A DNA stretch of 41,043 nucleotides from Deltaproteobacteria bacterium (GCA_016234845.1 JACRNP010000033.1:1-41043); one strand, 5' to 3'. Numbered from the stretch's first letter, positions 24,649 to 28,955 are shown. Notes: a model not told the origin generated them from the letters alone. Translations and numbers: made by a program.

Positions 24649-24662
24649 TTACCTACCGGTAA
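24649..24662. promoter_or_regulatory. TetR operator 1
   Basis: TTACC-TACC-GGTAA: 5-bp arms around a 4-bp centre, lying over the edge of the -10 box and the predicted start of the tetR promoter. The same arms occur in operator 2, 49 bp away centre to centre. Binding here would block polymerase directly. Confidence 0.65.
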
Positions 24663-24697: not shown

Positions 24698-24711
24698 TTA
24701 CCGATCGGTAG
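24698..24711. promoter_or_regulatory. TetR operator 2
   Basis: TTACC-GATC-GGTAG, containing the perfect 12-bp palindrome TACCGATCGGTA, immediately upstream of the -35 box. Together with operator 1 it brackets the promoter. Confidence 0.65.
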
Positions 24712-24725
24712 GATTCGGGGGAGGG

Positions 24726-25145
24726 TTACGCGCCCGCGGCCTTTTTCGCCACGCGGGCGTTGAACTTCGCGAAGTCGACCGCGAACCGCTCGTGGGTCCC
24801 CTTCCCGATGACCTCGACGTCGTCCGCGGCCGTGATCTCCCATCCGGTCCGGCGGCCGTCGACGAGCGTGCAGCGGACGCGGACGGTGACGGTCATCCCC
24901 GGCGGCGTCGCCGCGGTGTGCGTCACGTTGATCATCGTGCCGACGCTCCCCTCCCCCGGTTCCATGTGCGGCGCCAGCGCCTCGATGCACGCCCACTCCA
25001 TCAAACCGACCATGTAGCCGGTGGCGAACACCTTCGGCATCTCCTGGAACAGCTTCGACTCGGGGTAGAGGTGCGGCACCGTCTTGTTCTCGGGGACGCG
25101 GTACGTGTGGATGTGCTCCTGGCCGACCTTCAACGTGTCTTTCAC
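24726..25145 (-). CDS. hot-dog-fold acyl-CoA thioesterase, FlK-like
   Basis: A 139-residue single-domain hot-dog protein from a GTG at 25145 with a near-perfect AAGGAGGT site. The family pattern of fluoroacetyl-CoA-thioesterase-like proteins is present: VGLMEWACIEAL helix, the INVTHTAATPPGMTVTVR strand with the conserved Thr/His region, and the C-terminal GKGTHERFAV. Such enzymes hydrolyse acyl-CoA thioesters in the cytoplasm. It is divergent from rpfF, whose product handles acyl thioesters, with about 216 nt between the two starts. The substrate is not known; adjacency makes a role in the supply or release of DSF-type fatty acids worth testing, but many such thioesterases act elsewhere. Confidence 0.85.
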   Translation of the reverse strand: MKDTLKVGQEHIHTYRVPENKTVPHLYPESKLFQEMPKVFATGYMVGLMEWACIEALAPHMEPGEGSVGTMINVTHTAATPPGMTVTVRVRCTLVDGRRTGWEITAADDVEVIGKGTHERFAVDFAKFNARVAKKAAGA

Positions 25146-25205
25146 GGGATACCTCCTTCGGGTTCTTTCCGTGGGGGGAAACCTTGAGTTCGCGTCGACG
25201 TTCGA

Positions 25206-25234
25206 AGGATACCGCTTTCCCCTCGCCGACACAA
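25206..25234 (-). promoter_or_regulatory. possible promoter of the thioesterase gene
   Basis: TTGTGT (25234-25229) and TATCCT (25211-25206) with a 17-nt spacer on the minus strand, giving a leader of about 55 nt. Confidence 0.4.
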
Positions 25235-25283
25235 TCACGGGCAGGCGATCACCCCGCCAATCTACAACGTGAATCCTTCTCGA

Positions 25284-25311
25284 TTGCCATTTTCCGTTTG
25301 CATAGTACAAT
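25284..25311 (+). promoter_or_regulatory. possible promoter of rpfF in an AT-rich island
   Basis: TTGCCA (25284-25289) and TACAAT (25306-25311), 16-nt spacer. The stretch 25280-25335 is far more AT-rich than its surroundings and holds further -10-like sequences (TATATT, TATAAA), so more than one start or binding of an AT-preferring regulator is possible. Confidence 0.45.
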
Positions 25312-25361
25312 ACGTCGTTATATTGGTATAAATCCATGGGGATGTGGGAGGGTTATACGTC

Positions 25362-26276
25362 GTGAGTGCGGTATCACCTTACATCTTCCCGAGCAAGCCC
25401 TCGTATAAGCACATTTCGACTCGTTTCGATTCGCAGTACGGCGCACTGTGGTGCTTCCTCGATCCGAAGCCGCGCGCCTGTTTCACGTTCGAAGTCCTGA
25501 CGGAGCTGCGCAGCTTCGCGGCGGACGTGGAGCGCATGGCCGCCGAACCGGAAGACGTGCGGCGGAATATCCGTTACTTCGTCGTCGCGTCGAAAACCCC
25601 CGGGGTGTTCAATCTCGGGGGAGACCTCGCCCTGTTCGCCCGCTGCGTGACGGAGAGGGACGAGGAGACATTGCGGAAGTACGCCCACGCCTGCATCGAT
25701 ACGCTCTATCAGTACGTCGTGGCCTTCCGCCTCCCGATCCTCACCATATCCCTCGTGCAGGGGGATGCGATGGGAGGCGGCTTCGAGCTGGCCCTGGGCG
25801 GGGACGTCCTCGTCGCCGAGCACGGCGCCCAGATGGGGTTCCCCGAAGTGATGTTCAACCTGTTCCCCGGAATGGGGGCGTACAACCTGCTCCACCGGCG
25901 GATCGGGATCCAGAGGACCGAGAGGATGCTGCTGAACGGCAAACTGTACCGCGCGGAGGAATTGCACGCGGAAGGGGTGGTCGACATCCTGGCGGAGGCC
26001 GGTCGGGGGGAAAACGCGGTGTACGAATACATCGTCCGGAACGCGGGGCGGCAGAACGCGCACGAGGCGGTGAGGAAGGTCCGCCGCCGGCTGTTCGGAG
26101 TCAGCTTCGAGCAGCTCCAGGACGTGACTGAAATCTGGGTCGACACCGCCATGCGGATCGGCCCCCGGGAAGTGCGGCTGATGGAGCGGCTGGCCCGGTC
26201 CCAGGAACGCGTGGCCCTCAAGGCGCCGTCGCCGATCGGACCCCGGGGGGTCGTCTCTCCCGTTCCGGACGCCTGA
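25362..26276 (+). CDS. rpfF: RpfF-type DSF synthase (crotonase fold)
   Basis: Makes cis-2-unsaturated fatty acid signals (DSF family) from 3-hydroxyacyl-ACP by dehydration and thioester cleavage. The 304-residue protein follows Xanthomonas RpfF closely in conserved blocks: VFNLGGDLALFARCV, LVQGDAMGGGFELALGGDVLVAE, MGFPEVMFNLFPGMGAYNLL and ITEIWVDTAM-like TEIWVDTAMRIG. The two catalytic glutamates fall at Glu142 (GGGFE) and Glu162 (GFPEV), equivalent to Glu141 and Glu161. FNLGGDL and FPGMGAYNLL separate RpfF from ordinary enoyl-CoA hydratases. Start chosen at the GTG at 25362, 9 nt after GGGAGGG; a GTG at 25344 is possible. Its stop is 3 nt from the convergent rpfC stop. Confidence 0.92.
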   Translation: MSAVSPYIFPSKPSYKHISTRFDSQYGALWCFLDPKPRACFTFEVLTELRSFAADVERMAAEPEDVRRNIRYFVVASKTPGVFNLGGDLALFARCVTERDEETLRKYAHACIDTLYQYVVAFRLPILTISLVQGDAMGGGFELALGGDVLVAEHGAQMGFPEVMFNLFPGMGAYNLLHRRIGIQRTERMLLNGKLYRAEELHAEGVVDILAEAGRGENAVYEYIVRNAGRQNAHEAVRKVRRRLFGVSFEQLQDVTEIWVDTAMRIGPREVRLMERLARSQERVALKAPSPIGPRGVVSPVPDA

Positions 26277-26279
26277 CCG

Positions 26280-28883
26280 TCACGAAACCGCGGAATTCTT
26301 CCCGCTCAGGAAGCGATCCAGGGCGACGCGGGCCCGGCCGAGCTCCTCCCGAACCGCTTCGAGGTACTCCCACCCGCTCCGTTCCAGCTCCGAAGCGCCG
26401 ATCCCCGAGAACCGGTCGCACGCCTCCATCAGCGCGTAGGCGCCGATCTGCCCGGAGTTCCCCTTCAGGGCGTGGGCGACCGTCCTCGCCTTCTCCACGT
26501 CGCATTCCGCGACCGCTTTCTCGAGGTCCCGCGTCCGCTCCCGCGCCCCTTTCAGGTAGGTCCACACGAGCCGGACCACGAAGTCGCTGTTTCCGCCCAG
26601 CTCCGCCAGCTCCCGCAGGATCTTCGGATCCAGGCACGGCGCGGCCTCCGGGGCCTTGACTCCCGCACGGCGCTCCGCGCTTCCCGCCTCCCCGTCCGGC
26701 CGGCGCGATTCCCCTTCCGGGACGCCGACCTCCTGCGGGTGACGCAGGGCCCCGGGGACGAGCTCCTCCAGCAGCTCGAACAGCTTCCGCGTGTCGATCG
26801 GCTTGGTGAGGCACGCCTCCATCCCGGCCTCCTCGCACTCCGCCCGCGCCTCGGGGGTGGCGTCCGCGGTGAGCGCCACGATCGGCATCCTGTGCCCCCC
26901 CCGGCTCATGAAACGGTACAGCTTCGCCGCCTCGACCCCGCCCATCGTCGGCATGTGAAGGTCCATGAGCGTGATGTCGAAGGAACGGGTCTTCAGCGCC
27001 TCGAGCGCCTGTTCGCCGTCGCCGGCCAGCGTCACCTCGTGGCCGGCCCGTTCCAGGATCTTGGAGATCACCATCTGGTTCGTCCGGTTGTCCTCCGCCA
27101 CCAAAACGCGCAGCTTCCTCCCCTCCGACTGCCGCTGGCGGTACCGCTCCGAGATGTTCCCGACCGAGGGGTCTCCGGCCGCCGCGTCCGGGCGGGACAG
27201 GTGGAGCGCGTTGAAGAGCATCGTCCGGTTCACCGGCGCCGGCAGGACGGCGCCGTACCCGATCCTCGCGAATTCGTCGGCGTCCTTCCACCCTTCCGTC
27301 ACCAGCACGAGCTGGGTCTGCTGCAGGGTGGGATCCGACCGGATGCCGCGCGCGAACCCTTCCAGAGCCATGTCGAGCCCCAGCTCCGCGACGACGACGA
27401 AGTCGAACGGGACCCCCACGTTCGCCGCCGACACCATCTGCGCGAACGCCTGTGCGGACCGGTCCACGGACACCGCCCGGACGCCCCACGTGGCGAGGTG
27501 GTCCCGGACCGACTCGGTGATGTCCGGGTCGGAGGAGACGATCAGCGACCTGCGCTCCGACAGCGCCGCGACCGCCGCGGCCTCCGCCTGTTCGACCCGC
27601 TGCTTCTGCATCTCGACCGTGAACCAGAAGGTGCTCCCCTGCCCGGGGACACTGCGAAGCCCGATGCTCCCCCCCATCAGCTCCACGATCTCCTTGGAGA
27701 TCGTCGTGCCCAGCCCGGTCCCGCCGTACCGGCGCGTGATCGAGTCGTCCGCCTGGGCGAACCGCTCGAAGATCCTCCGCTGCGCCTCCGGGGCGATCCC
27801 GATGCCGGTGTCGACCACCTCGAAACGCACCGTCGCGTGCCCGTGCGACTCCGACTCCAGCGCCACGCGCACGCCCACCTCCCCCTTTTCGGTGAACTTC
27901 ACCGCGTTCCCGAGGAGGTTGAGGAGCACCTGCCGAAGCAGGAGCGGATCCCCGCGGAGGAGGAACGGGACGTTGGCCGGAACGTGGCGGAACAGGTCGA
28001 GCCCCTTGGCCCGGGCCTGCGGCTCCATGATGGCGACGGTGTTCTTCACGAGCCCGTGGAGGTCGAAGTCGGACACCTGCACGGATACCTTCCCGGACTC
28101 GATCTTCGAGAGGTCGAGGACGTCCTGCATCAGGAAGAGGAGGGTGCGGGCGGAGGCGTCGACCGTCTTGGTGAGCTCCTCCTGCTCCGCGGTGAGCGGC
28201 GTCCCCTTCAGCAGGTCGATCAGCCCGATGATCCCGTTCAGCGGCGTCCGCATCTCGTGGCTCATGTTGGCGAGGAACCGGTTCTTGGCCTTGTTGGCGT
28301 CTTCGGCCCGCTGGCCGGCGGCCGTGAGCTTCTTGAGAAGCGCGGAAACGTACACCGGCAGCACGATCAGACCGATCAGCAGCCCGCCCCCCATGAGGTG
28401 CTTGTCCCGCCAGAATTCGTTCAGGGAGACGGCCACGCCGAACCCGATCGTCCCGATGACCGCGGAGACGAACAGGTACCTCCTCCCGTACCGGAACCCG
28501 TTGCCGAAGATCACCCAGAGCATGATCACGTAGAGGGGGGCGCTCGCCCCCCCGACGACCGACACGCCGTAGGCCGGAAGGCTCAGGTCCCCCACGATCC
28601 CGAGGTACCGGCGGGAGGGGGAGATCCCCGGTTCGATGGTGATCAGGAAGAAGAGGCCTACGGAGAAAACGTGGTAGAACGCCGAGGTCCAGAGGACGCG
28701 CTGCTCTTCCGGGGTGATCCGGCCGCCGTGCGTGACCTCCCAGTACACACACAGGTAGATGAAGACGATCCCCGTGATGACGACGCGGATCAGCGCCTGC
28801 TCGTGCTCCGAGTCCGGACGGCGGGACAGGTGTCCCCACGCCGTCTTGAACCTGCCGGCCAGTATCAGGCGCCAGAACCGCAA
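26280..28883 (-). CDS. rpfC: RpfC-type DSF sensor, hybrid histidine kinase with HPt
   Basis: An 867-residue inner-membrane sensor. The N-terminal part matches RpfC in detail: SRRPDSEHEQALIRVVIT, a short juxtamembrane opening, about five membrane helices (30-185) and IFGNGFRYGRRYL. Then HisKA with His209 in ANMSHEMRTPLNG, HATPase (NLLGNAVKFTEKG, DTGIGI, YGGTGLGTTIS), a degenerate receiver (445-565, acidic pocket incomplete), a true receiver with Asp641 in LMDLHMPTMGG, and a C-terminal HPt with His804 in AHALKGNSGQIGA. In Xanthomonas RpfC binds and restrains RpfF and passes phosphate to RpfG; no rpfG lies here. Start taken as the TTG at 28883, right after GGGGGTAGGGG. The additional degenerate receiver is unlike classical RpfC. 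Confidence 0.9.
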   Translation of the reverse strand: MRFWRLILAGRFKTAWGHLSRRPDSEHEQALIRVVITGIVFIYLCVYWEVTHGGRITPEEQRVLWTSAFYHVFSVGLFFLITIEPGISPSRRYLGIVGDLSLPAYGVSVVGGASAPLYVIMLWVIFGNGFRYGRRYLFVSAVIGTIGFGVAVSLNEFWRDKHLMGGGLLIGLIVLPVYVSALLKKLTAAGQRAEDANKAKNRFLANMSHEMRTPLNGIIGLIDLLKGTPLTAEQEELTKTVDASARTLLFLMQDVLDLSKIESGKVSVQVSDFDLHGLVKNTVAIMEPQARAKGLDLFRHVPANVPFLLRGDPLLLRQVLLNLLGNAVKFTEKGEVGVRVALESESHGHATVRFEVVDTGIGIAPEAQRRIFERFAQADDSITRRYGGTGLGTTISKEIVELMGGSIGLRSVPGQGSTFWFTVEMQKQRVEQAEAAAVAALSERRSLIVSSDPDITESVRDHLATWGVRAVSVDRSAQAFAQMVSAANVGVPFDFVVVAELGLDMALEGFARGIRSDPTLQQTQLVLVTEGWKDADEFARIGYGAVLPAPVNRTMLFNALHLSRPDAAAGDPSVGNISERYRQRQSEGRKLRVLVAEDNRTNQMVISKILERAGHEVTLAGDGEQALEALKTRSFDITLMDLHMPTMGGVEAAKLYRFMSRGGHRMPIVALTADATPEARAECEEAGMEACLTKPIDTRKLFELLEELVPGALRHPQEVGVPEGESRRPDGEAGSAERRAGVKAPEAAPCLDPKILRELAELGGNSDFVVRLVWTYLKGARERTRDLEKAVAECDVEKARTVAHALKGNSGQIGAYALMEACDRFSGIGASELERSGWEYLEAVREELGRARVALDRFLSGKNSAVS

Positions 28884-28927
28884 CCCCTACCCCCGCGGGC
28901 TCCGCTGACGGGAATCCACGGGGTATT

Positions 28928-28955
28928 TCATCGGATGGAAAAACGGAAAAGTTTA
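28928..28955 (-). promoter_or_regulatory. sigma-28-like promoter upstream of rpfC
   Basis: TAAACTTT (28955-28948), 12 nt, TCCGATGA (28935-28928): 7 of 8 and 6 of 8 matches to TAAAGTTT and GCCGATAA, with the same 12-nt spacer as the flgM promoter in this window. Predicted start near 28921, about 38 nt before the TTG at 28883. No better sigma-70 promoter was seen in this gap. Confidence 0.4.

Follow-up and report, generated by a model that had tools for sequence, protein, structure and literature searches.

A probable DSF signalling pair, RpfF and RpfC, of an uncultured deltaproteobacterium

The 41,043-nt stretch of DNA analysed here (the window; Deltaproteobacteria bacterium, GCA_016234845.1, JACRNP010000033.1:1-41043) carries rpfF, for a crotonase-fold synthase of diffusible signal factor (DSF, a cis-2-unsaturated fatty acid), and rpfC, for a hybrid sensor kinase (Table 1). 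As an original prediction made from this DNA had stated, the two genes are convergent with a stop-to-stop gap of 3 nt, the same arrangement as in Xanthomonadaceae, and a scan of the convergent junction for terminators found none. Divergent from rpfF, across 216 bp, lies a gene for an FlK-like hot-dog thioesterase, and a Clp-family ATPase gene is found upstream of rpfC after a gap of 129 bp. The rpfF start is preceded by a GGGAGG box (Shine-Dalgarno) and places the two catalytic glutamates exactly at E142 and E162; the best start of the FlK-like gene, GTG 25145, lies behind GGAGG (Shine-Dalgarno) and gives 139 residues. We consider, with a probability of about 0.85, that rpfF and rpfC form a genuine RpfF/RpfC-type DSF signalling pair of an uncultured deltaproteobacterial lineage, with output most likely through an unlinked regulator and with the FlK-like gene unrelated to it.

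Table 1 Features of the rpfF/rpfC locus and, in the last row, candidate output genes of related genomes. Positions are those of the window unless a locus is named.
Feature	Position	Strand	Basis
rpfF, crotonase-fold DSF (cis-2-unsaturated fatty acid) synthase	25362..26276	+	GTG start, 304 aa
RpfF Glu142, catalytic glutamate 1	25785..25787	+	invariant, 20-sequence RpfF alignment
RpfF Glu162, catalytic glutamate 2	25845..25847	+	invariant, 20-sequence RpfF alignment
Sigma-70-like promoter match TTGCCA-16-TACAAT upstream of rpfF	25284..25311	+	10/12 consensus positions, consensus match only
rpfC, hybrid sensor kinase, five transmembrane helices, HisKA-HATPase-degenerate receiver-receiver-HPt	26280..28883	-	TTG start 28883, 867 aa, Pfam domains
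RpfC residues 22-29 RPDSEHEQ, DSF-sensing signature (R15-Q22 of Xanthomonas campestris)	28797..28820	-	alignments
RpfC His209, autophosphorylation site	28257..28259	-	SHEMRTPLNG motif, HisKA
RpfC Asp641, receiver phospho-acceptor	26961..26963	-	LMDLHMP motif, Response_reg 593-705
RpfC His804, HPt phospho-transfer site	26472..26474	-	AHALKGNSG motif, Hpt 772-851
FlK-like hot-dog thioesterase, neighbour judged outside the DSF system	24726..25145	-	Pfam FlK 1.5e-32
HPt protein and REC-GGDEF regulator genes, genus g10	L091:11092-12503; L134:2358-3721	divergent from rpfC	domain search

As judged by sequence and predicted fold, RpfF is a DSF synthase. Its best curated NCBIfam match is PRK08788 (345 bits against a cut-off of 177), it matches the RpfF of Xanthomonas campestris (Xcc; 3m6m) far beyond chance at E=2.6e-52, and it is about 37% identical to Xanthomonas RpfF over the matched region. 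In a maximum-likelihood tree of 34 RpfF proteins, the window's included, and five crotonases of the same genome, the RpfF clade, which holds Xanthomonadaceae RpfF and the solved BCAM0581 as well, is split from the crotonases at 100/100; the grouping with ordinary enoyl-CoA hydratases that the original prediction had named as evidence against itself is thus not what the tree returns. Both glutamates and the FPGMGA block (F168-A173) are invariant across the RpfF alignment, and the longer blocks first read in the protein are where they were placed, FNLGGDL from residue 83 and FPGMGAYNLL from residue 168. When a predicted structure of RpfF (pLDDT 85.9) was searched against the PDB with Foldseek, the 12 best chains, from five entries (3m6m/3m6n, 7zq7, 5fus and 6dgn: RpfF, Rpf-1, DfsA and Cronobacter RpfF), were all DSF synthases, with template modelling scores by target of 0.91-0.94, root-mean-square deviations of 1.6-1.9 and a best E of 1e-26. 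Ordinary hydratases start only at 8e-16, after an E-value gap of almost ten-million-fold.

RpfC likewise bears the features first read in it, with the start SRRPDSEHEQALIR, five hydropathy peaks (centred near residues 39, 72, 116, 145 and 174) and a whole phosphorelay (H209, D641, H804). Over the input domain it shares 33-42% identity with most of the Xanthomonadaceae RpfC compared, and its true receiver aligns with that of RpfC in 3m6m_D at E=4.4e-28. In Xcc RpfC the residues R15, D17, S18, E19 and Q22 are needed for DSF sensing (Cai et al. 2017, PMC5391125), and all five are identical in the RPDSEHEQ segment of the window protein. An additional stretch of about 145 residues (430-575) separates the ATPase from the true receiver. 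It is present in the non-Xanthomonadaceae RpfC compared, absent from Xanthomonadaceae, and resembles a degenerate receiver lacking the phospho-acceptor Asp; a Pfam scan of this segment gave no receiver match.

We surveyed rpfF in 24 genomes (species) of the window's family, among them its own (G000), and in 395 sampled genomes of the phylum. It occurs in 11 of the former but is rare among the latter, with 12 genomes, four of them lying outside the family. The convergent pair recurs in the relatives G022, G020, G001, G008, G004 and G019, and beyond them in Thiohalocapsa, alphaproteobacterial metagenome-assembled genomes (MAGs), Xanthomonadaceae, betaproteobacteria and G194 of the same phylum, there with rpfG. 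The rpfF contig of a further relative, G014, corresponds to the one in CTSoil_087 (L031), a deltaproteobacterial MAG, and this speaks for a deltaproteobacterial origin. In the single-contig G003 rpfF and rpfC are about 1 Mb apart, and the reading frame of its rpfC (L135:6054-7907) is broken after the kinase start, by pseudogene formation or sequencing error. Across the family, rpfF and an intact RpfC sensor tip are both present in ten genomes and both absent from 12 (Fisher tests, p=9e-5 and 6e-4), the exceptions being G017 with rpfF only and G018 with rpfC only, in both of which the contig ends at the expected position of the partner. Six genomes without rpfF (G006, G007, G010, G011, G012, G016; L128-L133) bear RpfC-like hybrid kinases, five of them adjoining msrA, whose tip reads T/E-x-S/G-P-E-x-D-Q, with Arg15, Asp17 and Ser18 replaced. 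These orphan kinases form one clade in the RpfC tree (100/99) and, with their altered tips, may read another signal. Elsewhere in the phylum (families f10 and f43; L155, L156, L157) RpfF has an arginine-rich C-terminal tail, and at L156 it is followed by a 784-residue GGDEF-EAL protein with a probable membrane N-terminus, possibly a different type of receptor.

The window lacks rpfG and rpfB, as had been observed from the outset, and the genome-wide search then proposed found, in an assembly 95.8% complete in 213 contigs, no clear RpfG orthologue and several RpfB-like acyl-CoA ligases, none an evident RpfB orthologue. The assembly encodes 12 HD-GYP and 15 GGDEF proteins. Its best full-length REC-HD-GYP protein (G000:C36; 32% identical to Xanthomonas RpfG) adjoins the best RpfB-like ligase and was considered as an unlinked RpfG; it is, however, a core gene of the family, with close orthologues in 22 of the 24 genomes regardless of rpfF and none found in the rpfF-bearing G001 and G008, and is therefore not a dedicated RpfG. 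The regulators linked to rpfC in other lineages differ. In G194 the gene immediately upstream of rpfC is rpfG, its product sharing 47% identity with Xanthomonas RpfG, and rpfG is also found in Thiohalocapsa and a betaproteobacterial MAG (50 and 51%); alphaproteobacterial loci (L034:7403-9550, also L036, L037, L083) have a REC-PAS-GGDEF-EAL gene beside rpfC, at the place of Xanthomonas rpfG; and in genus g10 of the window's family (G019, with the same order in G018) HPt and REC-GGDEF genes, a candidate diguanylate-cyclase output for DSF, are divergent from rpfC. These differences show that the output side of the DSF system is evidently exchangeable. The RpfC tip of the same alphaproteobacterial loci has Leu at the Gln22 position. 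It is possible, although we hold it doubtful, that the conserved RpfF/RpfC input of the phylum drives differing outputs, HD-GYP in G194, HPt with REC-GGDEF in g10 and, for the window, a regulator not linked to the pair, in which case DSF might raise and not lower cyclic di-GMP (c-di-GMP) in some species and the orphan kinases may read a different signal.

Some observations weigh against a genuine DSF pair. RpfF scores 209 bits against the curated NCBI RpfF model NF053515, below its cut-off of 550; BCAM0581 forms a long branch of the RpfF tree, and its exact place is unsure; RpfC carries Glu at the position of Xcc Ala21, where the change A21D brings the response down to 52% (PMC5391125), and this Glu could alter ligand preference; the window cluster has no REC-HD-GYP gene in an operon with rpfC, the Clp-family ATPase gene standing upstream of rpfC, where Xanthomonas has rpfG; and the co-occurrence p-values overstate the evidence, because the orphan kinases are a single clade and represent one loss event. 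The NF053515 score was calibrated with Xanthomonas RpfF (591 bits), Thiohalocapsa (240), a Beijerinckiaceae protein (210) and BCAM0581 (185). Because BCAM0581, a solved synthase, scores just 185, the cut-off covers the Xanthomonadaceae clade only; a lower score denies a protein the name NF053515 RpfF but not that of DSF synthase, and we dropped the cut-off as a membership test as too narrow. That RpfF is a metabolic enoyl-CoA hydratase/isomerase, lying by chance beside an unrelated hybrid kinase, would fit its generic Pfam ECH_1 match, and ordinary hydratases have the same crotonase fold and the same two glutamates. We think this very improbable in view of the separation from the genome's own crotonases in the tree, the Foldseek ranking of DSF synthases ahead of hydratases, the homology of the RpfC input domain to that of Xanthomonadaceae down to the DSF-binding residues, and the recurrence of the convergent linkage across phyla. 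It is also unlikely, if somewhat less remote, that an intact pair works in RpfF self-restraint or in eavesdropping and not as a full quorum circuit, the response regulator having been lost. Such a loss would agree with a cluster without rpfG in a genome without a clear RpfG orthologue; against it, all phosphorelay residues are kept, including the terminal HPt His804, REC-HD-GYP and GGDEF proteins are present in the genome, and a regulator could be missed in an assembly of this completeness and fragmentation.

The original prediction had further suggested that the adjacent thioesterase tunes acyl pools or signal release as a functional partner of RpfF. Its position speaks for this, both in the window and in G014 (L031) and G022, where it adjoins rpfF too, and in G194 a thioesterase adjoins rpfG, although one of another family (4HBT hot-dog, L158:2325-2840, divergent from rpfG). 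The FlK-like protein is homologous over its full length to solved FlK structures (E~1e-52), including the fluoroacetyl-CoA thioesterase FlK of Streptomyces cattleya; it keeps the equivalents of Thr42, Glu50 and His76, which we take to be the catalytic residues of FlK, and unlike FlK has Met at the Phe36 equivalent, with nothing pointing to fluoroacetate metabolism. These residues would suit an ordinary short-acyl-CoA thioesterase. Of the 24 family genomes, 17 have an orthologue (about 75-91% identical), and its presence is independent of rpfF, which eight of the 17 carry and nine lack (Fisher p=1); three rpfF-bearing genomes lack the gene, five have it elsewhere, and only in G000, G014 and G022 does it adjoin rpfF. 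The neighbourhood survey that had been called for likewise argues against a link to DSF, the gene having, in four genomes that lack rpfF (G009, G010, G006, G016), the TetR-HlyD-RND neighbours that it has in the window. RpfF, moreover, has thioesterase activity of its own (PMC4504480), and therefore no partner thioesterase is required. We thus give a role in the circuit almost no credence: phyletic pattern and neighbourhood led us to reject the FlK-like gene as a DSF gene, and it is a family core gene of a TetR-HlyD-RND efflux neighbourhood, an unrelated bystander of the pair. Most simply read, rpfF/rpfC came to lie between the Clp-family gene and an FlK-TetR-HlyD-RND block that was already there. 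For rpfF/rpfC the original prediction of a DSF locus is therefore supported, by phylogeny, by predicted fold, by signature residues and by the conserved convergent linkage; for the thioesterase it is not.

Two near-identical palindromes, TTACCTACCGGTAA and TTACCGATCGGTAG (window 24649-24662 and 24698-24711), lie upstream of the TetR gene and flank a strong promoter-like site, the search pattern having been written after the sites were seen; they are likely, as predicted from sequence, TetR operators governing the tetR-hlyD-RND efflux operon. On the other side of the pair, relatives have, between clp and rpfC, the gene for a conserved protein of about 170 residues (starting near SPASRKNVDR, with a weak NMD3-like match), which in genomes without rpfF lies close to clp or pfkB (L085:4349-4855, L112, L114, L143, L144); it is absent from the clp-rpfC gap of the window.

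Returning to the DSF pair, gene identity, signature residues and linkage can be read directly at the locus, and for catalysis, signal identity, binding and restraint we turn to the Xanthomonas and Burkholderia proteins as analogues. RpfF would draw 3-hydroxyacyl-ACP from fatty acid synthesis, dehydrate it to cis-2-enoyl-ACP and, through its own thioesterase activity, free the cis-2-unsaturated acid, which would build up outside the cell. The short N-terminal periplasmic segment of RpfC, together with its membrane helices, would bind the acid, whereupon the kinase would autophosphorylate at His209 and relay the phosphate via Asp641 to His804; the true receiver of RpfC probably also binds and restrains RpfF. 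From the HPt domain the phosphate would most likely be handed to a regulator that is not linked to the pair and that probably acts on c-di-GMP.

The closest known system is rpfF/rpfGHC of Xanthomonas campestris, which shares the RpfF fold with its catalytic glutamates, the convergent rpfF/rpfC order, and a five-helix RpfC with the same DSF-binding residues and the HisKA-HATPase-REC-HPt order; in contrast, the window cluster is without rpfG, rpfH and rpfB, and its RpfC has the extra degenerate receiver. Within the phylum, the convergent pair of G194 (L158; RpfF 47% and RpfC 44% identical to those of the window) differs in keeping RpfG. Leptospirillum (Nitrospirota), from whose cultures DSF-family compounds have been reported (PMC8357829), also combines a DSF synthase with RpfC outside Pseudomonadota; there, however, the genes form a unidirectional rpfFCG operon including rpfG (PMC8357829). 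The RpfF/RpfR systems of Burkholderia (BCAM0581) and Cronobacter share the crotonase fold of DSF synthases (5fus, 6dgn), whereas their receptor is RpfR, a PAS-GGDEF-EAL protein, and not a sensor kinase (PMC4504480). Among the open-access literature, which leaves most subscription journals outside its scope, no relevant paper on DSF in Deltaproteobacteria or Desulfobacterota was found.

Work on DSF signalling has dealt almost exclusively with gamma- and betaproteobacteria and with Leptospirillum, and the pair described here would extend fatty-acid quorum sensing to environmental lineages. The DSF system itself is known, and the pair is a further member of it in a poorly sampled deltaproteobacterial lineage; the interest lies in range and natural variation and not in a new mechanism. 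A natural comparison is offered by rpfF-bearing and rpfF-less relatives, since the sites at which their RpfC tips differ are precisely the known DSF-binding residues.

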